A stretch of 37,984 nucleotides of DNA from a virus. Under the pieces are notes generated by a model. The model saw only the letters and a program-made list of their open reading frames with translations, searched no databases and was not told the DNA's origin. Of this stretch, positions 3,521 to 26,760 are shown piece by piece; position 1 is the stretch's first letter; each line of letters begins with the position of its first letter. The stretch is taken from positions 1 through 37,984 of IMG/VR virus record IMGVR_UViG_3300042868_004622; one strand, written 5' to 3'. Position numbers and translations under genes: made by a program.

Positions 3521-5206
3521 ATGGACCCTTTCACCTTAGCCCTTCTCGGCAGTTCCGCCGCCAGCGGTCTGGGGTCCGTTCTAGGCGCGCGCGCTTCGGG
3601 ACAGGCGGCGCAAGCACAATCCCAAGCTGCTATGTTGAGCGCGGTTCTTCAGGCGCAGGCGCAGGAGCGCGCAAGACAAGACATCCTTCAGGGCAGGGCC
3701 AGCGGCGAGCAGGCTCTTAGATCCGCCGCCCAGCCAACATTGGAGGCTCTACGCGCTTCGACCGCGCGCGCTGAAGAGGTCCGGCGGGCGGGCGCTGGCG
3801 AGGCTGCGGCCGAGCTGGAGCGTGGGCGCGCGGCGTCTATCTCTCCGTTATTGGCGGCGCAGCAGGCGCAGCAGCAAGCGCTTTTAGGCGCTACCGGCGG
3901 TCAGTTGGAAGCGCTTTACGGCGGCGCTGGGCTGGGAATGCAGGCGCTTCGTCAGGCTGAGCTTGGACAGCTCGGCGCGTTACGAGGCGGAGCGGGTCAA
4001 GCTGCCGGCGCAATTCAGCGCGGTATGGGGCAGGGCGCAGGCGCGCTCACGGGGGCAGAACGCCGCGCGGCGGGAGAACTGACCGCAGGCGAGATGGGCG
4101 GCCTTGGCGCACTAGGCGGCGCGTTTGGTATGCAAGCCGGCTATCAACAGCCATATGTGTCGACAGGCGCAGGCGCGCAGAATCAGCTTGCGGCGCTTTA
4201 CGGCGTCGGCGGCGATCCTAACGCGCCGGGCTATGGCTCGTTTATGCGTCAGCCGACGCTCGAAGAACTTCAGATGGACCCCGGCTACGCGTTCCGCATG
4301 GCTGAAGGCCAGCGGGCTATGCAGTCGACGCTTGGCTCGTCGGGTATGCGCGGCTCGGGCGCAGCGCTGAAAGCTGCGACTCGCTACGGGCAGGAAGCTG
4401 GCAGTCAGGAATATCAGAACGCCTACGCGCGGTTCATGGCAAACCGTCAAGCGGCACTGTCCGGCCTTCAGGGCCTTGCGGGCTCGGGTCAGGGTGCGGC
4501 AAATGTAATGACGCAGGCTGCGGGTGGTCTTGGCACCGGAGCGGCAGGGCTTATGCAGACCGGCGCTACAGGCCGTGCGGGGCTTGCGTCCCAGACCGGT
4601 GCTAATCTCGCGAACATCTATGGAACCGGCGCACAGAACCTTGCGAACATCTATGGTGCGCAAGGCCAGAATGTCGCGGGTGTGCTGGGTCAGACGGGCG
4701 CTAATGTCGCTAATATTGCAGGCACGACAGGTCAGAACGTCGCGGGTGCGTTGGGTCAGACAGGCACTAACCTTGCGAATGTCTATGGCACGACGGGCCA
4801 GAACGTCAGTAATATTCAGGGCGCGACCGGGCAGAACCTTGCCGGGCTACGCGGCGCGCTCGGCACGGGGCTGTCGGCGGACATTCTTGGCAGCGGCCAG
4901 AACATCGCGAATGTCTACTCTGGACTTGGCACCGGTCTAGCCAATCTTGCCACGGGCGCGGCCGTCCCGCTCGCTAATCTGGCGACCGGCGGCGGCCAAG
5001 CGCTCGCGACCGGGCTGGAGAACGCCGCGCAGGCCCGCGCGTCCGGCTATATGGGCGGCGCGTCGGCGCTGTCTCAGGCGCTGGGCAATGTTGGGCAGAA
5101 CGCGCTGGCCTATAGCATGATGGACCGCATGTATGGTCAAGCGCGGCCGGCGACGGCGCAACCGTTCAACCGAAATTATGGTATGGGTTACGGCCCGCAG
5201 CTTTGA
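3521..5206 (+). CDS. DNA ejection / internal virion protein with hendecad repeats
   Basis: 561 residues, very rich in Ala, Gly and Gln. AGGAG at 3510-3514 lies at good distance from ATG 3521. The N-terminus is a small hydrophobic Gly/Ala/Ser segment (TLALLGSSAASGLGSVLG), then a long helical Ala/Gln/Arg stretch. Residues ~245-320 hold the motif DPGYAFRMAEGQRAM with SGAALKAATRYGQE, which I associate with podovirus DNA transfer proteins. Residues 358-445 are eight 11-residue repeats (for example QTGANVANIAG), with degenerate copies to about 500. The position fits the first of the three P22 ejection proteins (gp7, gp20, gp16), which leave the virion to form a conduit across the cell envelope. Sequence identity to P22 gp7 is not claimed. 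Confidence 0.65.
   Translation: MDPFTLALLGSSAASGLGSVLGARASGQAAQAQSQAAMLSAVLQAQAQERARQDILQGRASGEQALRSAAQPTLEALRASTARAEEVRRAGAGEAAAELERGRAASISPLLAAQQAQQQALLGATGGQLEALYGGAGLGMQALRQAELGQLGALRGGAGQAAGAIQRGMGQGAGALTGAERRAAGELTAGEMGGLGALGGAFGMQAGYQQPYVSTGAGAQNQLAALYGVGGDPNAPGYGSFMRQPTLEELQMDPGYAFRMAEGQRAMQSTLGSSGMRGSGAALKAATRYGQEAGSQEYQNAYARFMANRQAALSGLQGLAGSGQGAANVMTQAAGGLGTGAAGLMQTGATGRAGLASQTGANLANIYGTGAQNLANIYGAQGQNVAGVLGQTGANVANIAGTTGQNVAGALGQTGTNLANVYGTTGQNVSNIQGATGQNLAGLRGALGTGLSADILGSGQNIANVYSGLGTGLANLATGAAVPLANLATGGGQALATGLENAAQARASGYMGGASALSQALGNVGQNALAYSMMDRMYGQARPATAQPFNRNYGMGYGPQL
4592..4855 (+). repeat. 33-bp (11-residue) repeats in the ejection-protein gene
   Basis: Eight consecutive 33-bp units encode residues 358-445: QTGANLANIYG, TGAQNLANIYG, AQGQNVAGVLG, QTGANVANIAG, TTGQNVAGALG, QTGTNLANVYG, TTGQNVSNIQG, ATGQNLAGLRG. 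Invariant or near-invariant positions are Gly at 3 and 11, Asn at 5 and hydrophobic residues at 6, 9 and 10. The same period continues more loosely downstream (GSGQNIANVYS, GLGTGLANLAT, GAAVPLANLAT). Confidence 0.85.
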
Positions 5207-6851: not shown

Positions 6852-8425
6852 TGGACGTTCGGCTTCCTGACGGCACGATTGTAAAAAATGTGCCGGATGA
6901 CATAACGCAGGAAGACTTGATGGAGCGCGTCGGCATGATGCGTCAGCCATCTGAAGGTCTGACTATGGGCCGCGCGGCGGAAGTCGCGGGCGGCGCTGTC
7001 GCGCCTATCGCTGCCGCAGCCGGGTTGGGCGGCCTCGTCGCAGGCCCGGTGGGCGCTGTCGCGGCTCCTGCTGCGCTCGGCGTCGCGGATCTGGCAACAA
7101 CACTCTATAATCTGGCCGCGCCCAAGATGGGCACGTCGCAGGTCCGCACGCCGTCTGACATCGCGCGCCAGTATCTGACGCCGGAATCATTCAAACCCCG
7201 CACTCAGGCTGAAGAACTGTTGGCTGCTGCGGCTGAAGGCGGCGCGGGGGCGTTGACGGGCGCGGGCGCAGCGAACGTGCTGGCGCGCCGCGCGGCCCCC
7301 GGCGTCGTGCGTAACGTCATGACCACCATGGGCGAGCGTCCGCTTGTGCAGGCAGGCGCTGGCGCGGGCGCAGCGGCCGCCCCGGTTCGCGCTGAGCAGA
7401 TGGGCGTCGAGGATCCTCGCGCGCTGCTGGCGACGAGCCTTGTTGGCGGTCTGGCCGGTGCGCGCGGCGCAGCCGGGCTACAGCGTGGCGTCGAGTCCGC
7501 GACAGCGGCGGGGCAGCGCGGGCTCATGGGTCTGGTCGGCAAACCCCCAACAACCGAAGCGCTCGGGCAGCGCGCCTCCGAGTCCTTTGAACGCGCCACA
7601 ACTATGGGCGTGCAATATGACCCGAAGGCGTATCAGTCATTTGCGGGCGGTCTGGAATCTAGCCTGAAGGGATACGATCCTGACTTCAGCAAGTTCGCCG
7701 ATGTTAAAGTCGCCATTAACAAGCTGAAAGATCTAGACAGCCAGCCGTTGACGATTGAGCGGCTGCACAACGCGCGGCAAATGCTGGGCGTTTTGCGTGG
7801 TGACAGCGAGAAAGACGTGCGCCGGATGGCCGGCATCCTGACGGATCGTCTGGATAGTTTCATTACCGACAGCAAGAACGCCATCGGGGCTAATTCTCAA
7901 GAAGCCGCCGACGCGCTTATGTCCGGTATCCGTGACTACCGCATGATGTCAAAGAGTTCGGAGATCGAGCGTCTTATCGACCGCGCCAATCTGTCGGGCG
8001 GATCAGCCGAAAACATCGAGTCCCAGTTCCGTTCGTTGGCAAAGAACGAAGGCCGTATGCGCAAGTTTACGCCTGACGAACAGACGATGATCCGACGCAT
8101 CGCCAAAGGCGAAGAGGGCTTGTCTCTCGCCAATCTCGCCAGCATGGTCTCCCCGACGCGTAACCCTACTATGCTCGCTTCGCAGGCGCTTGTCGGCGGG
8201 TATGGATTGTCCAGTGACGATCCTTACGCAGTCTTTGGTGCGGGCGGAGCGGCGTTGGCCGGCGCGAGCGGCAGGGCTGTCCGTAACGCTTTGGCGCGGC
8301 GGGCGGCGTCCAACGTCGCGGCTATGACGCGCGGCGCGCCGACAGCCGTTCCTTTCTCAGTTCAATTTGCGCCGCTGGCCGCTCCTATTGCGACACAGGG
8401 CGTCAACGCAATGGCGAGGCGATGA
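6851..8425 (+). CDS. Third DNA ejection / internal virion protein
   Basis: 524 residues. It opens with MDVRLPDGTIVKNVPDDITQ, a short N-terminal module I have seen on phage internal virion proteins. Residues ~40-85 and ~130-215 are long Gly/Ala hydrophobic stretches (GAVAPIAAAAGLGGLVAGPV) able to insert in or cross a membrane. They frame soluble helical segments (residues ~250-420), and another Ala-rich segment lies near the C-terminus. Following the lysozyme-bearing protein, it matches the place of P22 gp16, which crosses the inner membrane during ejection. Specific homology to gp16 is not claimed. It starts in a TAATG junction and its TGA overlaps the following ATG by four bases. Confidence 0.6.
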   Translation: MDVRLPDGTIVKNVPDDITQEDLMERVGMMRQPSEGLTMGRAAEVAGGAVAPIAAAAGLGGLVAGPVGAVAAPAALGVADLATTLYNLAAPKMGTSQVRTPSDIARQYLTPESFKPRTQAEELLAAAAEGGAGALTGAGAANVLARRAAPGVVRNVMTTMGERPLVQAGAGAGAAAAPVRAEQMGVEDPRALLATSLVGGLAGARGAAGLQRGVESATAAGQRGLMGLVGKPPTTEALGQRASESFERATTMGVQYDPKAYQSFAGGLESSLKGYDPDFSKFADVKVAINKLKDLDSQPLTIERLHNARQMLGVLRGDSEKDVRRMAGILTDRLDSFITDSKNAIGANSQEAADALMSGIRDYRMMSKSSEIERLIDRANLSGGSAENIESQFRSLAKNEGRMRKFTPDEQTMIRRIAKGEEGLSLANLASMVSPTRNPTMLASQALVGGYGLSSDDPYAVFGAGGAALAGASGRAVRNALARRAASNVAAMTRGAPTAVPFSVQFAPLAAPIATQGVNAMARR

Positions 8426-11828: not shown

Positions 11829-12905
11829 ATGACACACAGCAATATCGTTGGCGGATCATCCGCTAAACGTCTCATCAACTGCCCCGGTTCGCGGGCGCTC
11901 GTTGACAAAGTTCCGCCTAGCCCGTCTAGCGCATACGCCGAAGAAGGCACGCGTTTGCACAATGCGATGCACGCGATCCTGTCGCTGGACATGAAGGTGG
12001 ACGACTTTGACAATAACGAGAAACTGAAGTTTGCTCTCGACGCGTTAAACGAAATTGACCCTAATCGTGAGCTGGAGTTCCAGACCGAGCTTACGGTGCA
12101 TTTCGGAGGATTCCTTGCCGGTGTATTTGGATCAGTTGACCTCATTGGCCGAATTAGCCGTCGTGCAGTGGTTGTTGATTGGAAGTTTGGTGATGGGGTG
12201 GCGGTGGACGCTGAAGAGAACCATCAACTTCTGTTCTACGCCGCTGCTGCTATGCGCACGCCCGAGGCTCGCTGGGCGGTTGAGGGCGTGGACGAGATAG
12301 AGCTTATTATCGTGCAACCGCCGTATGTAAGACGATGGCTTACAACGCCCGGTCGTGTGAAGGCGTTTGAGCGCACGCTGTTCGACGCTGTGCAGATGTC
12401 CTTCCGTCCTGACGCGCCGCTGAAGCATGGCGATCACTGTCGCTGGTGTCCTGCGAAGCCGACGTGCCCTGCGATCACGGGACAGTTGGAGCGCGCGATC
12501 TCGACTAAGGTTAAGGCAATCGACCCGGAGAAGATGAACTATGCACTGGCAATGGCGATACTTGCGGAAGAATGGGCGAAAAGCGTTCGCGCGCTTGCGC
12601 AGACCATGCTGGAAAATAAAGCGCCTATCGACGGATGGAAGCTCGTTCCCAAACGAGCCACTAGAAACTGGGCCGATCCTGAGAAAGCAAGAACAACTCT
12701 TGCGGAGATGGGATACGCTGCCGAGGATTTGATGGAACTGAAGAGCCCTGCGCAGGTCGAGAAGATCTGCGGCAAACTGCCGAAGGAACTCTTCGTTTCC
12801 ATCTCAACAGGTAACACGATAGCGCCGGAGAGTGATCCCCGGCCTGCCGTGGTTACGCTAGGCTCTGACATTCGTCGGGCCTTCTCTAAACTAGAGGTGA
12901 AGTAA
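11829..12905 (+). CDS. RecB/Cas4-like exonuclease (DUF2800 type)
   Basis: 358 residues from ATG 11829, which has a strong AAGGTAAGGTA before it; an earlier in-frame ATG at 11775 lacks this and lies outside the conserved region. PD-(D/E)xK signatures: GGSSAKRLINCPGS at the N-terminus, EEGT (Glu39), FGSVDLIG (Asp104), VVDWKFGDG (Asp117, Lys119) and the QLLFYAAA helix motif. Cys18 with C204-x2-C207-x5-C213 forms the four-cysteine set that in AddB/Cas4 proteins ligates a 4Fe-4S staple around the nuclease. It probably resects DNA ends for phage recombination, alongside the helicase and VRR-NUC made from the divergent block. An HNH gene follows by one base. Confidence 0.75.
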   Translation: MTHSNIVGGSSAKRLINCPGSRALVDKVPPSPSSAYAEEGTRLHNAMHAILSLDMKVDDFDNNEKLKFALDALNEIDPNRELEFQTELTVHFGGFLAGVFGSVDLIGRISRRAVVVDWKFGDGVAVDAEENHQLLFYAAAAMRTPEARWAVEGVDEIELIIVQPPYVRRWLTTPGRVKAFERTLFDAVQMSFRPDAPLKHGDHCRWCPAKPTCPAITGQLERAISTKVKAIDPEKMNYALAMAILAEEWAKSVRALAQTMLENKAPIDGWKLVPKRATRNWADPEKARTTLAEMGYAAEDLMELKSPAQVEKICGKLPKELFVSISTGNTIAPESDPRPAVVTLGSDIRRAFSKLEVK

Positions 12906-12906
12906 A

Positions 12907-13392
12907 ATGATCGACGCAGAAACGTTACGCAGTCTGTTGGACTATGACCCTGCGACCGGCGTATTTACTTGGCGCGTGGCAACATCATACAGAATTAAGA
13001 TAGGTGACATTGCTGGTTGGGGTAACAGTGAAGGCTATCAGTATATCACTATATTAAAACGTAAATACGGGGCGCATAGATTGGCGTGGGTATATGTTTA
13101 TGGTGATTGGCCTCTACCACATCTTTGTGTGGACCACATTAATAATGTTAGAACCGATAACCGAATATGTAATCTTCGGCTGGCAACTCACAGCCAAAAT
13201 AACGTTAATCGACCAAACCATAGAGGCGATATGCCGAGAGGTGTTCACAGATATAATAATAAATTTGTGGCGAAGATAAGAATAAAAGGAAAAACAACAA
13301 GTTTAGGCAGTTATGTAACTGCCGAAGAAGCGCACGCTGCATACTGCGAGGCGGCGCAAAAAGAATTCGGTGCGTATTATCGCCCCGAATAA
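12907..13392 (+). CDS. Homing endonuclease HNH-AP2 (copy 1)
   Basis: 161 residues. The N-terminal helix LRSLLDYDPATGVFTWRV is shared with two other genes here. The HNH nuclease core is HRLAWVYVYGDWP then VDHINNVRTDNR (76-86) and NLRLATHSQNN. A C-terminal AP2-type DNA-binding fold (RGVHRYNNKFVAKIRIKGKT, LGSYVTAEEAHAAY) follows. Such proteins nick or cut a target in phages lacking them and spread by repair. Base 13201-13260 has 24 G+C of 60, far below neighbouring phage genes, a sign of foreign origin. It begins one base after the exonuclease stop and 19 bases separate it from the next gene, so it rides on the host operon without breaking a gene. Confidence 0.85.
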   Translation: MIDAETLRSLLDYDPATGVFTWRVATSYRIKIGDIAGWGNSEGYQYITILKRKYGAHRLAWVYVYGDWPLPHLCVDHINNVRTDNRICNLRLATHSQNNVNRPNHRGDMPRGVHRYNNKFVAKIRIKGKTTSLGSYVTAEEAHAAYCEAAQKEFGAYYRPE

Positions 13393-13411
13393 CTGAGAAA
13401 GGTGAAGTAGT

Positions 13412-14032
13412 ATGACTAATATCGTAAAGTTCGGTAACGCCAACCTTCCCACGGCCGCGTCTCTTGCGGCTGCGTTGCGTAAGACAGCCGACGAGGCCGC
13501 GTCAGGACCGGGTGTTATCCTGAAAATGGATAAGACGGGTCACTGGGTCTACGGTGCGGACCAGACCGAGATCGACCGCAGCGGTATCTGGGCGGTCAAT
13601 CCTTTGTCCTTTATTCATGGCTACATTGCGTGGGGCGAAGGCGAGGTGCTTGGCGAGCATATGTTCCCGATCACTGAAGAGCTGCCTGAGCTGGAGCCCC
13701 CGCCGCCGAACGCCAAGCGTGGCTGGGAGCCGCAAGTCGGCATGAGTCTGAAATGTATCAGCGGCGAAGACAAAGATGTGCAGGCACGCTTCACGACGAC
13801 TGCGGTCGGCGGGAAGAAGGCGATGCACGCGCTTGCCATGAAGGTCGCCGAGCAGGTCGAGAAAGATCCCGACAACTCTGTCGCACTGGTAAAACTTGGT
13901 GCCGATCATTACCAGCACAAGAGCTACGGACGGGTCTTCACGCCTGTGTTCGAGGTCACGGACTGGATCAGCCTTAACGGGCCGGTCGAGGAAGTGGCCG
14001 AGGCCGACACGGGGCGTCGTCGTCGTAGCTGA
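13412..14032 (+). CDS. Conserved replication-block protein, function unknown (ssDNA-binding candidate)
   Basis: 206 residues, preceded by AGAAAGGTGAAGTAGT as ribosome site. I recognise no named domain. The sequence looks like a compact mixed alpha/beta protein (GVILKMDKTGHWVYGADQTE, WEPQVGMSLKCISGEDKDVQ, YGRVFTPVFEVTDW). It ends in an acidic stretch (PVEEVAEAD) and then TGRRRRS. Its place between an exonuclease and a DNA polymerase, its own strong terminator, and its size are what one expects of an abundant single-stranded DNA-binding or annealing protein. That role is inference from context only. Codon use is GC-rich, unlike the HNH gene before it. Confidence 0.55.
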   Translation: MTNIVKFGNANLPTAASLAAALRKTADEAASGPGVILKMDKTGHWVYGADQTEIDRSGIWAVNPLSFIHGYIAWGEGEVLGEHMFPITEELPELEPPPPNAKRGWEPQVGMSLKCISGEDKDVQARFTTTAVGGKKAMHALAMKVAEQVEKDPDNSVALVKLGADHYQHKSYGRVFTPVFEVTDWISLNGPVEEVAEADTGRRRRS

Positions 14033-14886: not shown

Positions 14887-15224
14887 TGAGCGAAACGGAC
14901 CTGTTAATGTCTGCCTTTAAGCAGGGATATAATGAAGCAAAAGAGCAGGCCCGTGAGCGCATCACGGAGCTTGAGAGGCGCGAAAAGCATCTTGAAGAGA
15001 TGCTCAACGGCTGGCGGGACGAAGCAAAAAAAGCAGACGCCCGCATCGCGGAACTGGAGGCGGCGCTGAAAGACGCTACCGTCCACCTTATCGCAGCCGT
15101 GTCGCTTCTTGAAAGCGGAGGCAAGAAAGGTGCGCCAAGTAATAAGATGTTTGAGCAGATGCTTGTTGATTACAAAAACGGCATCGAACGCGCGCGCGCC
15201 GCGCTGAAGGGAGAGAAGTGATGA
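14857..15224 (+). repeat. Duplicated 33-bp gene junction (14857-14889 and 15192-15224)
   Basis: The two 33-base copies differ at two positions. Each contains the end of an ORF coding ARAAL(N/K)GEK, a GGAGAGAAG (or GGGAGAGAAG) ribosome site and a TGATGA overlapping stop/start. The copies bracket the 111-residue coiled-coil gene exactly, so that gene behaves as a removable cassette flanked by direct repeats. Confidence 0.7.
14886..15221 (+). CDS. Coiled-coil protein, unknown function
   Basis: 111 residues from ATG 14886, three bases after an in-frame GTG; GGAGAGAAG sits at the right distance. Residues ~10-65 form a charged heptad-like helix (YNEAKEQARERITELERREK, AKKADARIAELEAALKD), then TVHLIAAVSLLESGG and a short helical end (ERARAALKGEK). 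It precedes the DNA polymerase with a TGATG overlap, so it is translated with it. Many phages carry such small coiled-coil proteins before replication genes, and no role is known. It lies between two copies of a 33-bp direct repeat. Confidence 0.55.
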   Translation: MSETDLLMSAFKQGYNEAKEQARERITELERREKHLEEMLNGWRDEAKKADARIAELEAALKDATVHLIAAVSLLESGGKKGAPSNKMFEQMLVDYKNGIERARAALKGEK

Positions 15225-17146
15225 TCTTCTGGTGCGACTTCGAGACAGCCAGCGAATGCGATCTGCCGGAGGCGGGCGTATATAACTACGCCCGTCATCC
15301 GTCGACCCGCGTGCTGTGCATGTCCTACGCCTTCAACGATGGGCCTGTGATGACGTGGCGGCCGGGCGAGCCCATGCCGGACGTGCGCGGTCAGATCCGC
15401 GCGCATAACGCCGCGTTCGAGCGACTGATCTTCTGGCGTGTGCTGAAGATGGACATACCATTAGAGCAGTTCTACTGCACCGCCGCGCAGGCGCGGGCGA
15501 ACTGTGCGCCGGGTAGTCTGGAAGACGTTGGCCGATTCGCCGGGCTGTCGATGCGCAAGGATCATCGCGGCGCGTATCTCGTCCGCAAATGCTGTATGCC
15601 GCCCTATAACACTGAGCTGCTGCCCGAGCTGATCGAATATTGCGAGCAGGATGTCCGAACGATGCGCGCCGCCAGTCAGGCGATGCGCGAACTGACCCCG
15701 GAGGAACTGGAGGACTACCATGTTAACGAGCGGATTAATGATCGTGGTGTTCTTGTCGACATCAATCTATGCAGCGCGGCGGTCAAATATGCGGCTGACG
15801 AGCTTCGAGAGATCGAGGCTGCGGTTGTCGAGATCACGGGCGGAGAGGTTACGAGCGTTCGAAGTCCTCGAATGCGACTGTGGGTGCAGAACAGACTTGG
15901 CCCCGAAGCGCTGAAACTCATGCAGCGCGAAGACAAGATGTCTATTGACAAGACTGTCCGCGCCAATCTGTTAGCCATAGACGACCCCGAAGAGGTGCCC
16001 CCCGATGTTAAGGAAGTCATACAGTGCGCCGATGACCTTTGGGCGTCGAGCGTGGCAAAGTTTGATCGTCTTCGCAATCTGGCTTGCGCTGACGGTCGTG
16101 TTAGAGGCGCTTTTGTCTTTGCCGGTGGATCCGCCACAGGACGCGCGTCTAGTTACGGCGCGCAATTACACAATGCGCCACGTAAGTGCGCCAAAGACCC
16201 GGCCGCCGTGCGTCACGCAATGGTTCGAGGACATGCAATCGTGCCAGCATATGGTAGCCGCGTCACCGACGTTCTGAAAGGAATGCTCCGCCCTGCGATA
16301 ATTCCCGCTAAAGGAAATGTTTTCGTCGGATATGATTGGAGCGCCATCGAGGGCCGCGTTAATCCTTGGCTCGCCAACTCGACATCGGGTGAAGCTAAGC
16401 TGCAATGTTTTCGGGACGGACTAGACCCTTATATCGTGAACGCAGCCGCTACGTTTAACCGACCATACGCCGACATAGAACGCGAGTATAAAGAGACTGA
16501 CAAATCCGACGAACGTCAAGTCGGTAAGGTGCAAGAACTTGCGCTCGCCTTTGCCGGGGGTGCAGGCGCTTTTAATTCCATGGCGCGCATTTACGGTGTG
16601 CGGCTGTCAGACGCCGAAGTCAAGCGCGCAGTGAACGGTTGGCGGCGTGCCAATTCTTGGGCGGGCGTGTTCTGGAGCGAGCTGGAAATCGCGTATACGC
16701 GGGCGTTGCGGAATCCCGGTAAAGAATTTTCAGCCGGGCGCGTAGTCTATCTATCTGACGGGCGGCACCTTTGGTATGCACTTCCGTCAGGCCGCGTGCT
16801 TTGCTACCCCTACGCGCGATTTGAAGAAGACGGCAGCATAACTTACGCTAAAGCCGCGTGGAAACCGGCGGCGGGGGCTAATGAATGGCCACGCGCGAGA
16901 TTGTGGAGAGGAATCGCTGTCGAGAATTGCACACAGGCCACAGCGCATGATTTACTGCGCGAAGCGCTTCGCAAACTGCCGGACGTGGTAGCGCATATAC
17001 ACGATGAGATTTTGATAGAGTGCCCGGAAGATCGCGCCGACGAAGTGTTGTCAGACATGAAAACAGTCATGACAACACCGCCGTCATGGGCTAGTGGACT
17101 CCCCCTTGCCGTTAGTGGTAAAGTTATGTTACGATTTGGTAAATAA
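15221..17146 (+). CDS. Family A DNA polymerase with 3'-5' exonuclease
   Basis: 641 residues from ATG 15221 in a TGATG junction. Exonuclease domain: FWCDFETAS (Asp6, Glu8), AHNAAFE (61-67) and YCEQDVRTM (Asp144). Polymerase domain: GRASSYGAQLHNAPR, motif A DWSAIEGR (372-379), motif B RQVGKVQELALAFAGG (432-447) with Lys436, motif C HIHDE (592-596). All catalytic residues are present, so this should be the active phage replicase. Composition changes within the gene: 15361-15420 has 44/60 G+C, while 16441-16500 has 31/60, the shift falling near 15720. The AT-richer part lies next to the HNH gene at 17162, suggesting a recombination tract. The length is compact compared with bacterial Pol I, as in other phage enzymes of this class. 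Confidence 0.92.
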   Translation: MIFWCDFETASECDLPEAGVYNYARHPSTRVLCMSYAFNDGPVMTWRPGEPMPDVRGQIRAHNAAFERLIFWRVLKMDIPLEQFYCTAAQARANCAPGSLEDVGRFAGLSMRKDHRGAYLVRKCCMPPYNTELLPELIEYCEQDVRTMRAASQAMRELTPEELEDYHVNERINDRGVLVDINLCSAAVKYAADELREIEAAVVEITGGEVTSVRSPRMRLWVQNRLGPEALKLMQREDKMSIDKTVRANLLAIDDPEEVPPDVKEVIQCADDLWASSVAKFDRLRNLACADGRVRGAFVFAGGSATGRASSYGAQLHNAPRKCAKDPAAVRHAMVRGHAIVPAYGSRVTDVLKGMLRPAIIPAKGNVFVGYDWSAIEGRVNPWLANSTSGEAKLQCFRDGLDPYIVNAAATFNRPYADIEREYKETDKSDERQVGKVQELALAFAGGAGAFNSMARIYGVRLSDAEVKRAVNGWRRANSWAGVFWSELEIAYTRALRNPGKEFSAGRVVYLSDGRHLWYALPSGRVLCYPYARFEEDGSITYAKAAWKPAAGANEWPRARLWRGIAVENCTQATAHDLLREALRKLPDVVAHIHDEILIECPEDRADEVLSDMKTVMTTPPSWASGLPLAVSGKVMLRFGK

Positions 17147-17161
17147 CTTTGGAGCGGGGTC

Positions 17162-17659
17162 ATGCTGACGCAAGCGCGGTTAAGAGAGCTGTTGCATTAC
17201 GATGAAAAAACAGGTGTGTTTACATGGAAAGTTAAGAAAGGCGGTCGAGCCGTTGCGGGGCAGCGTGCGGGGGCCAGAGATTATTATGGCTATATTGTTA
17301 TTCGTCTGGATGGTGTGCTTTATAAGGCGCATCGTCTGGCGTGGCTTTATGAATCTGGTTCTTGGCCGTTAAAGAATTTAGACCACATAAATCGAGATAA
17401 AAGTGATAACCGGCTGAAAAATTTACGGTTGGCCGGGCAATCGTTGAATATGCACAATGCCAAACGAACACCTACCAAAAGCGGCGTTGTGGGCGTAGTA
17501 TGGGATTCTTGCCGCAAGAAATGGGTTGCCAGCATAAAAATTAATTACGCGACTATTTTTCTAGGGCGGTTCGACAAAAAAGAAGACGCTATAAGAGCGC
17601 GTAAATCCGCGCACAAAAAGATAATGGCTGTGCTGGAGACACCGCATGACACTCTTTGA
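17162..17659 (+). CDS. Homing endonuclease HNH-AP2 (copy 2)
   Basis: 165 residues, preceded by GGAGCGGGGTC. It has the same plan as copies 1 and 3: helix RLRELLHYDEKTGVFTWKV, HRLAW (57-61), LDHINRDKSDNR (73-84) with NLRLAGQSLN, then an AP2-type domain from ~107 (GVVGVVWDSCRKKWVASIKI, LGRFDKKEDAI). AT-rich codons mark it as transferred. It sits between DNA polymerase and primase-helicase, the classic setting for a free-standing phage homing gene. Its last 14 bases overlap the primase start, so the primase ATG is inside the HNH gene and may depend on its translation. Confidence 0.87.
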   Translation: MLTQARLRELLHYDEKTGVFTWKVKKGGRAVAGQRAGARDYYGYIVIRLDGVLYKAHRLAWLYESGSWPLKNLDHINRDKSDNRLKNLRLAGQSLNMHNAKRTPTKSGVVGVVWDSCRKKWVASIKINYATIFLGRFDKKEDAIRARKSAHKKIMAVLETPHDTL

Positions 17660-19976
17660 ATACTTTACTTCGCTCGCGCCGGAAGGCGAGACAGCGCTGA
17701 TCGTCAAACAGATCGACACTGGCAAGCTGCACGCCGACGGAACGCCGCGCTACACATGGCCGGCTTACATGCCGACGCATAAACGCCGTGAGGGCGAGAG
17801 CTGGTTTATCAATACCGGATCGTTCATCATCGACCGATTCAAGAACGGCAAGCCGTCCGCCAGCGTGGCGAACTGCACGCATGTTCTGTTTATGATGCTC
17901 GACGACATTGGCACGAAATCAAAGACGCCGCCGCTTGCGCCGACCGCTATCGTTGAGACAAGCCCCGGCAACTTTCAATACTGGTATGCTTACAGCGATC
18001 AGCCGACAGTCGAGCAGCACTGCGCTGCGCTGTCAGCTATCGCACGCGCGGGCTACACCGATCCGGGCGCGACTAACGCCGTGCGTAACTGCCGTCTTCC
18101 GGGCAGCGTAAACCAGAAACCCGGGCGCGAAGCGTTCGAATGCCGTGAGGCGGTATTCGATCCAGACATTGAGTATACACTGCAAGAGATATGCGCCGCG
18201 CTTGGCGTTACGCCTGACGAAGAGAGCAGCCGCGCAAATCATTTACGTCTTACGGATACCGGAAACGATGACGTGTTGGCGTGGCTCAACGAGCAGGGGC
18301 TTGTTACGTCACGCGTAAACAGTGAGGGTTGGTGCGGCGTTGTCTGCCCAAATCACGCCGAGCATACAGACGGCCAGCTAGAAGCCCGCTATATGCCTCA
18401 GTCGCGTGCGTTCTGTTGCTACCATGGCCACTGCGAACATCTCGACAGCAATTATTTTTGCGACTGGGTCGCCGAGCAGGGTGGCCCGAAGCACCGACCG
18501 GGGATCCGCGAGGAACTGATCGCCGAGGCGATGAAGCCGCTTAGCAGCCTGAAGCCGACGAAAGCCAACCCTGACGTGGCGGCCGAGATCATCGCCGAGA
18601 CCGAGCGCAAGCAGGCCGGGCGTGAATCGCGCAGCGAGTGGCATGACCGCTTCGCCTATATCATCTCCGACGACGCTTATTTCGACCGGCATACGTGCAG
18701 CGAGATCAGCCGCAAGGCGTTCAACGCTCTGTTCAAGGGCGTCGAGTGCGTGGTGTCTAACTCTGAAGGCAAGAAGCGCCGCATCGAGGCGTCGTCGTGG
18801 TTCGACACGTTCCGTGAGGACAAGGGCGCTTACGCCCTGCACGGCCTGACCTACGCAGCCGGCGAAGACTGGATGGTCACGAAGGACGGGCTCGTCTACG
18901 GCAATATGTGGCGCGACGCCCGCCCCGAGATCAAAGGGCCGCCCGGCGACCCGCAGCGGTGGATCGACCACTGTCGGCGGCTTGTGCCTGACGAACAAGA
19001 GCTTGAGCATATATGGGATGTGATGGCCTATAAGGCCCAGCACCCGAATGTAAAGATCAACCATGCGATTCTGCATGGCGGCAAGGGCGGCTGCGGCAAG
19101 GACACCATGTGGGCACCGTTTATATGGAGCGTGTGTGGGCCGCATGAGAAAAACAAGGGCCTGATTGACAACGACAGCCTGACGAGCCAATGGGGCTATC
19201 AGCTAGAGTCGGAGATCGTCGTCCTTAACGAGTTGAAGGAACCTGACGCCAAGGACCGCCGTGCGCTCGCGAACAAGCTGAAGCCGATCATCGCCGCGCC
19301 GCCGGAGACACTGGTCATTAACCGCAAGGGCCTACACCCCTATCAGATGGTTAATCGTCTGTTCATGCTGGCGTTCACCAACGAGGATATGCCGATAACG
19401 CTCGATTCCGACGACCGGCGATGGTTCTGCGTGTGGTCCGACGCGCCCAAGATGACGCCGGGCGAGGCGCAGGCGATGTGGGGCTGGTATCACAAGGGCG
19501 GCTTCGAGGCCGTGACGGGCTGGCTGCGCGCGCGGGACGTGTCGAAGTTCAACCCGCAGGCGATTCCGCCCATGACGGAATACAAGACTAAACTGATCTA
19601 TGTCGGCATGAGCAATGCCGAAAGTCACATCTATCACATGATCGAGAAGGGCGAAGCGCCGTTTAACGTCGATGTTATCAGCGGGCCGTGGCATACGTTT
19701 TTGGCGAAGCTGAACGATCCTATGGACAACGCGACCCGTGTCGTGCGGCCGGCGCTGTTTCATGCGTTGAAGGAGGCCGGTTGGGTTGACAAGGGGCTCT
19801 GCTACTCGTCAGACTTTCCGTCTAAGAAGCATTGTTTTGTGAAACCGCGTCTGGCGGAATGGAACCGGTCGGACGTAAGGCGCGCGCTGGCCGAGATAAC
19901 GGGCGAAGGGAAGGATAGGGAAAATGTCGTCGCCCTCGCTGAACGTGTATCCAATATTCCTAAAACATCTGGGTGA
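17646..19976 (+). CDS. Primase-helicase (AEP/RepB-like primase plus SF3/D5-like helicase)
   Basis: 776 residues. N-terminal primase-polymerase-like domain: VLFMMLDDIGTK (80-91) with the acidic pair Asp86/Asp87, SPGNFQYWYAYSDQP (106-120), and VRNCRLPGSVNQKPG (146-160), a signature of this fold. A Cys/His cluster at 230-263 (WCGVVCPNHAEH, FCCYHGHCEH) is a likely zinc finger. The C-terminal helicase has Walker A HGGKGGCGKDTM (477-488), a downstream ELKEPDAKDRRALANKLKP sensor region and FTNEDMPITLDSDDRRWFC, as in D5/NrS-1-type helicases. It should unwind the fork and prime for the polymerase at 15221. The start overlaps the HNH gene by 14 bases; codons become GC-rich again from its beginning. Confidence 0.85.
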   Translation: MTLFEYFTSLAPEGETALIVKQIDTGKLHADGTPRYTWPAYMPTHKRREGESWFINTGSFIIDRFKNGKPSASVANCTHVLFMMLDDIGTKSKTPPLAPTAIVETSPGNFQYWYAYSDQPTVEQHCAALSAIARAGYTDPGATNAVRNCRLPGSVNQKPGREAFECREAVFDPDIEYTLQEICAALGVTPDEESSRANHLRLTDTGNDDVLAWLNEQGLVTSRVNSEGWCGVVCPNHAEHTDGQLEARYMPQSRAFCCYHGHCEHLDSNYFCDWVAEQGGPKHRPGIREELIAEAMKPLSSLKPTKANPDVAAEIIAETERKQAGRESRSEWHDRFAYIISDDAYFDRHTCSEISRKAFNALFKGVECVVSNSEGKKRRIEASSWFDTFREDKGAYALHGLTYAAGEDWMVTKDGLVYGNMWRDARPEIKGPPGDPQRWIDHCRRLVPDEQELEHIWDVMAYKAQHPNVKINHAILHGGKGGCGKDTMWAPFIWSVCGPHEKNKGLIDNDSLTSQWGYQLESEIVVLNELKEPDAKDRRALANKLKPIIAAPPETLVINRKGLHPYQMVNRLFMLAFTNEDMPITLDSDDRRWFCVWSDAPKMTPGEAQAMWGWYHKGGFEAVTGWLRARDVSKFNPQAIPPMTEYKTKLIYVGMSNAESHIYHMIEKGEAPFNVDVISGPWHTFLAKLNDPMDNATRVVRPALFHALKEAGWVDKGLCYSSDFPSKKHCFVKPRLAEWNRSDVRRALAEITGEGKDRENVVALAERVSNIPKTSG

Positions 19977-24817: not shown

Positions 24818-25259
24818 CCCGGACACCGGGGTTTTTACCCGCGACGGCAAACCGGCGGGCTACGCCCATCACACCGGCTACCGATATGTTGGCGTAGACG
24901 GCGAAACGATAATAGAGCATCGTTTAGCGTGGTTTTACGTATATGGAGTTTGGCCTTCCGCCGATCTGGACCACATAAACCGCGTTCGCTCCGATAACAG
25001 AATCGCTAATCTCAGAGAGGTTTCCCGCTCTGAAAACTGTCAGAATCAACCGATAAGACGCTCAAATAAAAGCGGTCGGACCGGCGTTTACTACCACAAA
25101 GTATCTGGTAAATGGGCAGCGACTATAAACGTAAACAGACGGCAGATACATTTAGGTATATACGACACTGCGGAAGAGGCAATATCAGTGAGGCGCAAAG
25201 CCGAGCTGGAGCACTACCCATATAGGGCTAAAGATGCAGACTCCGATATACGATCCTGA
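24771..25259 (+). CDS. Homing endonuclease HNH-AP2 (copy 3)
   Basis: 162 residues from ATG 24771 (MHRITHDRLKSLLAYDPDTG); an upstream in-frame ATG at 24708 adds only terminase-overlapping sequence. HNH core: HRLAWFYVYGVWP, DLDHINRVRSDNR (65-77), ANLREVSRSENCQNQ. AP2-type end: RTGVYYHKVSGKWAATINVN, LGIYDTAEEAISVRRKAELE. It lies between the terminase subunits, overlapping the small one by 47 bases and the large one by 26. Invading a packaging operon puts the target in an essential conserved gene, the usual strategy of such elements. It is paralogous to copies at 12907 and 17162. Confidence 0.87.
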   Translation: MHRITHDRLKSLLAYDPDTGVFTRDGKPAGYAHHTGYRYVGVDGETIIEHRLAWFYVYGVWPSADLDHINRVRSDNRIANLREVSRSENCQNQPIRRSNKSGRTGVYYHKVSGKWAATINVNRRQIHLGIYDTAEEAISVRRKAELEHYPYRAKDADSDIRS

Positions 25260-26760
25260 AGACGAGCAAAAACTGATGGCGACCTTTTGGTCGCCTCAGA
25301 TAAAAAACGATCCTCTGGCGTTTGTGAGGCTTTGTTTTCCGTGGGGTAAAGCCGGCACGCCACTAGAGCATTTCTCCGGGCCCCGGCGTTGGCAGGTAGA
25401 TGTTCTGCGCGAGCTGCGCGATCACATAGCGGCCAATAACAACCGCGTGGATTACGAGACTTTTCGTATGGCCGTGTCGTCAGGGCGCGGTATTGGTAAG
25501 TCCGCGTTAGTCAGTTGGCTTATTATTTGGATGGTGACGACGCGCATAGGGTCTACTGTCATAGTGTCCGCTAACAGCGAGGCTCAGCTCCGATCTGTTA
25601 CTTGGGCGGAAATAACCAAATGGCTAAGCATGGGCCTTAACTCCCATTGGTTTGAGATTAGCGCCACGCGCGTATCTCCCGCCAAATGGCTAACAGATCT
25701 TGTAGAACGCGATCTTAAAAAAGGTTGCCGCTACTGGTCCGTGGAAGGGCGTTTGTGGTCTGAAGAAAACCCGGACAGTTATGCGGGCGCGCATAACATG
25801 GACGGTATGATGCTGATATTTGACGAAAGTTCGGGCATACCCGATGCGATCTGGAGTGTGGCTAGTGGATTTTTTTCGGAAAATACTCCTAATCGCTTTT
25901 GGCTTGCTTTCAGCAACCCCCGGCGCAACTCAGGATATTTCTACGAGTGCTTCAACAGCAAGCGAGAGTTCTGGCGAACCAAGACTGTTGACGCCCGAAG
26001 CGTGGAGGGAACTGACAAGGCCGTTTATCAACAGATTATCGATGAATACGGCCCTGACAGCAGCGCAGCCCATGTCGAGGTCTACGGAGAGTTCCCCAAC
26101 GCCTCAGACGATCAGTTCATTGGATCCATGCTCGCTGAAGAAGCCATGGCAAGAGCGCCGTCAAAGGATCCGTCCGCGCCGATTGTGGTCGGGGTGGACC
26201 CGGCGCGGTTCGGGGCGGACGCGACGGTCATCGCGGTAAGGCAGGGGCGCGACATTATCGCGATCCGGCGCTACCGGGGCGACGACACCATGGAGGTGGT
26301 GGGGCGCGTCATCGACGTGATAACGGAGTTCAGCCCGGCGCTTGTAGTCATTGACGAGGGCGGGCTGGGCGCGGGCGTCGTCGACCGTCTGAAGGAGCAG
26401 CGTTACAAGGTGCGCGGGGTGAACTTTGGCCAGAAGTCCGTCAAACCGTTGATGTATGGCAACAAGCGGGCTGAGATGTGGGGCGCGATGAAGGAATGGC
26501 TGAAGACGGCCAGCATCCCGAAAGACCGCTTCCTGAAGTCTGACCTGACCGGGCCGATGATGAAGCCGGACTCGAAGGGCACGATCTTTCTGGAGAGCAA
26601 GAAGGATATGAAGGCCAGAGGGCTGGCCTCGCCCGACGCGGCCGACGCTATCGCCATAACATTCGCCTATCCGGTGGCGCACCGCGAGGCGCGGCCGATG
26701 GACAACAGACGCCGGCTCAGTTATGGTGGGGCGATTTCATCTGGATGGATGGCAAGCTAA
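25234..26760 (+). CDS. Terminase large subunit
   Basis: 508 residues. ATPase: Walker A SSGRGIGKSA (82-91), Walker B MLIFDESSG (193-201) with Asp197/Glu198. Nuclease of RNase H fold: VVGVDPARFGADA with Asp322, VVIDEGGLGAG with Asp374, and SPDAADAIAITFA with Asp468/Asp471. All packaging-motor and cleavage residues are present. It cuts concatemers and pumps DNA through the portal. AGGGCTAAAG before ATG 25234 lies within the HNH gene, so translation follows it. Base composition steps from about 50% to about 70% G+C near 26160 (25561-25620 is 30/60, 26161-26220 is 43/60), between the ATPase and nuclease halves. TAATG joins it to the next gene. Confidence 0.93.
   Translation: MQTPIYDPEDEQKLMATFWSPQIKNDPLAFVRLCFPWGKAGTPLEHFSGPRRWQVDVLRELRDHIAANNNRVDYETFRMAVSSGRGIGKSALVSWLIIWMVTTRIGSTVIVSANSEAQLRSVTWAEITKWLSMGLNSHWFEISATRVSPAKWLTDLVERDLKKGCRYWSVEGRLWSEENPDSYAGAHNMDGMMLIFDESSGIPDAIWSVASGFFSENTPNRFWLAFSNPRRNSGYFYECFNSKREFWRTKTVDARSVEGTDKAVYQQIIDEYGPDSSAAHVEVYGEFPNASDDQFIGSMLAEEAMARAPSKDPSAPIVVGVDPARFGADATVIAVRQGRDIIAIRRYRGDDTMEVVGRVIDVITEFSPALVVIDEGGLGAGVVDRLKEQRYKVRGVNFGQKSVKPLMYGNKRAEMWGAMKEWLKTASIPKDRFLKSDLTGPMMKPDSKGTIFLESKKDMKARGLASPDAADAIAITFAYPVAHREARPMDNRRRLSYGGAISSGWMAS

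Follow-up and report, generated by a model that had tools for sequence, protein, structure and literature searches.

The catalytic half of the DNA polymerase in this phage has been swapped for a distant version along with a neighboring, probably selfish, endonuclease gene. The window, meaning the whole 37,984-nucleotide stretch of IMG/VR record IMGVR_UViG_3300042868_004622, a virus of bacteria, carries on its plus strand a family A DNA polymerase gene of 642 codons (15218..17146; PF00476, E = 3.9e-14; phrog_17, E = 5.5e-90), a free-standing HNH-AP2 endonuclease gene (17162..17659; PF13392, E = 5.9e-13; phrog_99, E = 6.6e-60), and a primase/helicase gene with RepB-primase/DUF5906 matches (17646..19976). 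The names polymerase, HNH, and primase, which the first-pass annotation had given from the sequence, are borne out by these domain matches. Alignment with relatives indicates that the polymerase gene is a chimera, typical of its clade in the front part and foreign in the catalytic core. Its parts are an exonuclease part (codons 1 to 166, 15218..15715), a clade-typical middle part (codons 167 to 315, 15716..16162), and the foreign catalytic core, termed the A core (codons 316 to 642, 16163..17143), all on the plus strand. The A core contains the motifs DWSAIEGR, RQVGKVQELAL, and HDE, which we take to be the family A polymerase motifs. On the same comparisons, the foreign block consists of the catalytic core, the stop codon, and the HNH gene, at about 16163 to 17645; its right edge is the start of the primase gene, which the last codons of the HNH gene overlap. 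We regard it as near certain that this block has a foreign origin and became linked to the HNH gene.

The block was delimited against 11 relatives (L001 to L011) found by using the polymerase to scan viral contigs. Outside the polymerase, kilobase-long aligned stretches of L001, L002, L003, L009, L010, and L011 mostly match the window at 90 to 96% identity. Compared with L009, identity is 0.92 in the exonuclease part, 0.96 in the middle part (96.4% of nucleotides), and 0.64 in the core and returns to 0.968 in the primase protein. The exonuclease part is 92 to 95% identical in nucleotides to those of L002, L003, L007, and L009 and only 64% identical to that of L010, whereas the core is 63 to 64% identical to those of eight relatives with a B-type core (L002 and L004 to L010), 92% identical to that of L001, and 74% identical to that of L040. 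In bins of 12 codons, identity to L009, L007, and L002 is mostly above 85% through codon 312 and then, with few exceptions, at or below 0.75 to the end of the polymerase; L010 exceeds 85% mostly only after about codon 160 and shows the same drop past codon 312. L001 is the only complete relative in this first set that stays 92 to 95% identical along the whole polymerase, and L011 stops at codon 304 and is uninformative on the core.

The left edge lies between codons 315 and 316, inside the conserved SATGRASSYGAQ motif. Triplet tests that took L040 for the second parent and L009, L010, L002, or L004 for the backbone placed the switch at 315/316 in every case (0 of 5,000 permutations each); edges were less sharp in other polymerases, falling at codon 345 in L001 and at codon 292 or 345 in L040. 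At the right edge, the first 120 bases of the primase gene are 99% identical to those of L007, which lacks the HNH gene, and 94 to 96% identical to those of L009 and L010; the whole primase protein is 96.8% identical to that of L009, 98.2% to that of L010, and 74.1% to that of L040. A tract inherited with the HNH gene, as the first-pass annotation proposed, thus exists in kind, running from codon 316 to the primase start, but not in the place or on the evidence originally given.

Trees of the separate polymerase parts, built from 21 of 27 polymerases (L003, L028, L034, L041, and L042, as copies or near-copies, and L054 were omitted), conflict in the way that a replaced core predicts. In the exonuclease tree, the window and L001 group with L002 and L004 to L009 (support 97/97) and L040 groups with L027 and L029 (96/91); the middle tree recovers the same groups, with L010 added to the first, at lower support (94/97 and 83/88). 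In the core tree (codons 316 to 642), the window, L001, and L040 are joined at 100/99. Approximately unbiased (AU) tests rejected both backbone groupings in the core and rejected a clade of A-core carriers in the exonuclease (p = 0.0003) and middle (p = 0.007) parts, p values that are descriptive, the groups having been defined only once the core signature was apparent. The conflict between partial trees that had been suggested as a check was therefore found, but with its break at codon 316 and not at 166. L040 represents a second backbone, the closest HNH-less relative of which outside the core is L027 (84% identical in the exonuclease part, 81% in the middle part, and 65% in the core; primase proteins 87.7% identical, against 74.1% between L040 and the window). 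Between the two backbone lineages, A cores are 74% identical, B cores 73%, and backbones 72 to 76%, values compatible both with recurrent acquisition from donors outside the sample and with long-term maintenance of the two core types.

The same tree bears on the proposal of divergence without transfer, in which pressure to avoid being cut altered the resident core. Such pressure would likewise confine divergence to HNH-bearing phages. For the A core it is contradicted by the sister relationship of the window core to the L040 core, which lies in a different backbone and shares its length differences, and by the low core dN between the window and L001 (0.016, against a dS of 0.32). We consider divergence in place highly improbable; it may apply at most to L205, discussed below.

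The first-pass annotation had located the tract differently, taking a change in composition near 15720 as its left edge. The 60-base counts on which it relied are exact (44/60 at 15361 to 15420 and 31/60 at 16441 to 16500), but these were chosen windows and do not represent the two halves, for which the mean G+C of 60-base windows is 62.6% (codons 1 to 165) and 56.3% (codons 170 to 641). The proposed break holds for third codon positions and fails for total G+C: the change in total G+C (0.626 to 0.556) is nonsignificant in a change-point test (block-permutation p = 0.159), whereas GC3 falls from 0.784 (0.78 over codons 1 to 166) to 0.545 with the best break at codon 167 (15719), a value reached in 0 of 2,000 block permutations. 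The breakpoint in codon usage that was to be looked for is thus present at the predicted place. The primase is GC-rich again in third positions (0.736) and only modestly so in total G+C (58.9%), and the HNH gene lies below it on both measures (G+C 46.2%, GC3 0.452). A GC3 step by itself says little, since steps at p < 0.01 occur in 5 of the 11 genes tested, the polymerase gene included, and that of the terminase gene (25234 to 26760; 0.571 to 0.837 at 26170) is larger. Composition alone was accordingly dropped as evidence.

Several observations place this step outside the HNH-linked exchange, as an ordinary inherited feature. GC3 of the exonuclease part exceeds that of the rest by 0.11 to 0.25 in 10 of the 11 relatives, among which L002 and L003 give identical values and L011 is partial; the sole exception is L010, which carries a different allele of the exonuclease part (GC3 of 0.52) and so lacks the step. 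Four carriers of the step (L004, L006, L007, and L008) have an empty polymerase/primase junction, the polymerase stop overlapping the next start, and the step is therefore independent of the HNH gene. Codons 167 to 315 are of the HNH-less backbone type: codons 170 to 312, which the composition-based reading assigned to the copied tract, are 95 to 96% identical to those of L007, L009, and L010 and 87 to 88% identical to those of L004, L005, L006, and L008, none of which has a junction HNH gene. L040 and L205, which do pair such a gene with a different core, lack the step. Besides the significance of the step itself, the reading is favored by a somewhat larger median step in clusters with an AP2-HNH gene in the junction (0.104 in 13 clusters, against 0.041 in 154 without; p = 0.039, with rows that are not independent). 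We give almost no credence to the step being the left edge of an HNH-copied tract. Across the true edge at codon 316, GC3 is nearly flat (0.564 to 0.538), which illustrates how composition steps can mislead about breakpoints when the real edge is nearly invisible in composition.

Where the GC3 step came from is a separate question. That the ancestor of the clade long ago exchanged its exonuclease domain is a tentative possibility that we think rather unlikely. Steps of at least 0.15 are rare in the wider set (8 of 182 polymerase clusters), exonuclease swaps are common there (168 of 904 pairs with a middle identity of at least 0.80), and L010, with a replaced exonuclease part, changes type near the same place, at codons 145 to 168. 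The exonuclease and middle trees, however, agree on the clade of the window and on its separateness from L027 and L040, so that no exonuclease exchange is seen at the sampled depth, and different selection on the two domains would give the same picture.

The gene at 17162..17659 probably encodes a free-standing homing endonuclease. It contains an HNH_3 domain (PF13392) above the cutoff at residues 54 to 96 and belongs to PHROG 99, thus retaining the endonuclease domain of a homing family; its AP2 match falls under the curated cutoff. At a single site beside a conserved essential gene, it is present in the window, L001, and L015, and the junction is empty in L004, L006, L007, L008, L010, L017, and L037. 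The adjoining DNA, from codon 316 to the primase start, is inherited with the gene, an association seen in 3 of 3 lineages of mixed AP2-HNH status; that the tract arose by conversion is what we infer from this. No interruption splits the polymerase reading frame, and the HNH gene stands on its own past the stop codon, unlike an endonuclease encoded within an intron or intein, and no group I intron or other structured RNA was found by Rfam at the gathering threshold in the window, L031, L025, L009, or L033. Repeats of at least 10 bases were not found around the gene, and scans for promoters and terminators gave no more than in shuffled sequences.

Compared with its counterpart in L001, the HNH gene has a low dN/dS, about 0.21. 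Its dS of 0.98 exceeds those of the shared core (0.32) and the upstream polymerase (0.20 to 0.29), so HNH gene and core have not simply traveled together since; either the HNH gene was exchanged or converted separately from the core or it may be evolving faster. When 17162-17659 is aligned with L001:4433-4915, the first 100 codons are 79 to 84% identical in nucleotides and the AP2 part (codons 101 to 150) is 59% identical, although the neighboring DNA of the two phages is more than 90% identical. This divergence could possibly reflect turnover of target specificity. The window also encodes a second HNH-AP2 protein (12907-13392), between exonuclease and nucleotidyltransferase genes. This gene is missing from L001, L003, L009, L010, and L011, where the flanks are 92 to 96% identical on both sides, and its insertion therefore left no divergent block; it is bounded by 16-base near-repeats (12895-12910 and 13400-13415, 88% identical).

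The A core and the orthologous HNH gene have the same narrow distribution. Among the best 80 of 406 and the best 80 of 534 matches in the core scans, A cores were found in L001 and in L040 to L042 (the latter 82% identical in protein), and other matches were at most 67% identical. Such scans can miss A cores, since L015, which was found through its primase and has a truncated A-type core (95% identical over 130 residues), was in neither best-80 set. Orthologues of the HNH gene at the polymerase/primase junction occur in L001 (73%), L015 (73%), and L040 to L042 (69%) and in these only. A core and orthologue thus co-occur in the window, L001, L015 (partial core), and L040 to L042, across two backbones. 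The A core was recovered from several metagenomes, which makes a chimera improbable for it. In loci sampled by the primase only (27 loci, 24 with readable cores), both A cores were accompanied by the HNH orthologue, whereas any junction HNH gene beside the 22 non-A cores was at most 47% identical. Annotated phages offered no donor for the A core, the best record (MW202483) being only 57.8% identical; that relative carries a 702-base hypothetical gene in its polymerase/primase junction. No relative was confirmed in bacterial genomes in one scan with exact peptide patterns, which is sensitive to close relatives only.

A survey extended the comparison to 248 complete, uninterrupted polymerases from the fetched loci, grouped into 182 clusters at 98% identity and leaving out intein-bearing L031 and L039 and truncated L011, L015, L017, L025, and L037. 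Junction HNH genes were present in 19 clusters (13 of AP2 type and 6 of NUMOD type; primase located in 173 clusters), and an HNH gene lay upstream of the polymerase in 29 (169 clusters having at least 450 bases upstream); the HNH models were built from matches found here, that for the NUMOD type from a single sequence, and may have overlooked further HNH types. Where codons 170 to 312 were at least 85% identical, the cores were discordant in 29 of 50 pairs that differed in junction HNH status and in 1 of 502 pairs of equal status, all 29 of the former involving the window, L001, or L205; at an 80% threshold for middle identity, the counts were 50/79 and 31/825. Grouping yielded 25 lineages with more than one member. 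All three lineages that mix presence and absence of the AP2-HNH gene split in the core exactly by that gene; two lineages have it throughout and are uninformative, and two of the other 20 also have divided cores, with no AP2-HNH gene in any member (a lineage of 45 members, split 17/28, and another in which L248 stands apart). The association is not shared by other junction genes: four lineages are mixed for NUMOD-type HNH genes and none splits along NUMOD status, and the cores are unswapped in L005 and L009, which have Mom-like and PAPS-reductase-like genes in the junction (Pfam matches below the cutoff). AP2-type junction HNH genes also accompany non-A cores (L033 to L035, L133, L151 and L152, and others), but most of these have no close HNH-less relative and so neither support nor contradict the association.

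In the third mixed lineage, the HNH-bearing side is a single contig, L205, which appears from its alignments to pair an AP2-type HNH gene with a swapped core of its own. Relative to L317, L324, and L053, its polymerase is 94 to 95% identical in the middle part, 81 to 85% in the exonuclease part, and 64 to 66% in the core, with an edge near codon 349 and a junction HNH_3 gene with a weak AP2 match. Its core is not an A core, and the nearest cores (70%) belong to HNH-less phages. HNH genes lie on both sides of the L205 polymerase, one of NUMOD4 type overlapping its start (L205:4452-4916) and one of AP2 type past its stop (7008-7466). More generally, the junction looks like a cargo slot, holding a NUMOD4-HNH, Mom-like, or PAPS-reductase-like gene or nothing in L002, L003, L005, L009, L025, L029, and L031, phages that otherwise resemble one another. 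A further insertion, in L031 (3819-4685; similar in L039), interrupts polymerase motif B in frame with 289 codons that begin with Cys and end with His-Asn before a Cys. It resembles a mini-intein in these features, had no Pfam intein match, and hides an HNH-type frame (3893-4639; phrog_374, E = 2.4e-34) in another reading frame; hidden HNH genes in an excerpted source offer a comparison (PMC11855218).

We consider intronless homing in which the polymerase core is co-converted the best explanation of these patterns and moderately probable. In a mixed infection, the HNH-AP2 product would cut within the B-type catalytic core of an HNH-less phage. Repair templated by the HNH-bearing genome would then replace the cut core and carry the endonuclease gene along by co-conversion. 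Strand exchange would be resolved where identity resumes, leftward at the conserved motif that ends near codon 315 and rightward where the primase gene begins, as expected for A and B cores that share only about 63% identity; such dissimilarity of the exchanged pieces would also explain why the block is one-sided. The imported A core keeps its catalytic motifs and presumably resists cleavage. The separation of gene and target would fit intronless homing as it is described in available excerpts, in which the target lies hundreds of bases or more from the gene and repair copies both (PMC2988022).

Homing, and not plain recombination, would then be the driver. Several observations complicate that reading. 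Cores have been exchanged without a detected junction HNH gene in the 45-member lineage and in L248; the second HNH gene at 12907-13392, of the same class, was inserted without a tract; dS between the window and L001 is higher in the HNH gene than in the core; and L205 does not have the A core. The association is carried by only three independent lineages, and some of the loci surveyed had been retrieved by querying with the A core or the HNH gene.

Ordinary mosaicism, in which polymerase segments recombine at conserved motifs and take along an HNH gene that happens to lie within them, is the main alternative and has a real, if smaller, chance of being correct. The edges do lie within conserved motifs, two lineages are split in the core without AP2-HNH genes, and exonuclease swaps are frequent without a 5' HNH gene, being seen in 56 of 362 pairs of equal 5' status with a middle identity of at least 0.85. 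Against it, core discordance tracks the AP2-HNH gene in 3 of 3 mixed lineages, compared with 2 of 20 others, and the differing edges and the different donor core of L205 point to separate events with the same companion gene. A more far-reaching version of homing, which we regard as speculative and less probable than simple mosaicism, is a two-part driving cassette, in which the endonuclease destroys the B cores of rivals and the linked A core serves as both immune allele and replacement enzyme. Such a cassette would keep two very old versions of the core circulating within single phage species, given that both core types have diverged between the two backbone lineages about as far as the backbones.

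The 5' side of the polymerase in L010 looks like a mirror image of this arrangement, as a weaker case. In L010, an HNH gene (PHROG 2255, E = 1.9e-26; no Pfam match at 0.001) overlaps the polymerase start and the exonuclease part is foreign. Of the fetched rows, 32 have a relative of this HNH gene upstream of the polymerase, and in 29 of these the exonuclease part is of L010 type; the rows were not deduplicated, and some were fetched with the L010 HNH gene or exonuclease part as the query. The case is weaker since exonuclease exchange is frequent without HNH genes and since the nearest relatives of the L010 exonuclease part (L280 to L282, 80%) lack the L010-type HNH gene. The candidate donors are either the 80% relatives without the HNH gene or relatives at 65 to 69%, some of which have it, so that joint transfer of HNH gene and exonuclease part into L010 is putative. 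With L048 as a stand-in donor, a triplet test supported only codons 4 to 86. A general rule for the 5' side was likewise weaker, exonuclease parts being discordant in 50 of 103 pairs of different 5' HNH status against 56 of 362 pairs of equal status. If the cassette reading holds, selfish endonucleases would account for part of the mosaicism of phage polymerases, on the 3' side in the window and on the 5' side in L010.

A role for homing endonucleases in phage mosaicism is a long-standing suspicion, and exchange of essential phage genes linked to homing endonuclease genes (HEGs) is known in outline from phage T4 and from HEG islands. Intronless homing by free-standing T4 endonucleases, with co-conversion and marker exclusion, is described in one account (PMC2988022) and is reportedly the subject of Belle 2002 and Liu 2003. 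The present locus resembles the T4 SegF, SegG, and mob family, as portrayed in excerpts of that account, in that a free-standing endonuclease gene adjoins an essential replication gene, occupies one site in some close relatives and not in others, and is coinherited with neighboring DNA (PMC2988022). Cleavage and biased inheritance are demonstrated in the T4 material presented there, whereas here they are inferred from sequence comparison, and the block here is a whole catalytic domain, 63% identical to the one it replaced. A review of T4-like phages, in its excerpted part, states that much mosaicism lacks closely linked homing genes and that effects on distant loci are without experimental evidence (PMC2993671).

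HEG islands, in the portion available of the report by Barth, Dunham and Seed (2023), are likewise places where homing genes border exchanged essential genes and HEG content is unstable; 29% of IPA-HNH neighborhoods are near a DNA polymerase (PMC10448857). Those islands exceed 10 kb, are bracketed by HEGs, and are more than 90% identical between distant phages (PMC10448857). The block described here has one HEG, spans about 1.5 kb, and has an edge inside a gene, and identity between A-core lineages is 74% (nucleotide identity of the window and L040 cores); it is therefore not a HEG island in that sense. Lactococcal Skunavirus genomes, as excerpted, also have HNH genes at fixed places beside core genes, including that for DNA polymerase, with lower coverage or identity in the neighboring core genes, and no sub-gene block with defined edges is described in that excerpt (PMC12724721). 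Phage pan-genomes from cryoconite similarly include near-identical genomes in which individual genes, that for DNA polymerase among them, were swapped for distant variants, and in the excerpted account a link to homing is only suggested (PMC7468147); in the present case, the block tracks one HNH class. A description of this case was not found in the open-license literature among the matches listed for intronless homing and for HEG-polymerase co-conversion or domain swap. What the present case adds is a replacement the size of a domain, smaller than a gene, that lies next to one endonuclease class in three backbones, a natural series in which, on matched backbones with HNH-less controls and with defined edges, one class of homing gene tracks the replacement of an essential polymerase's catalytic half.
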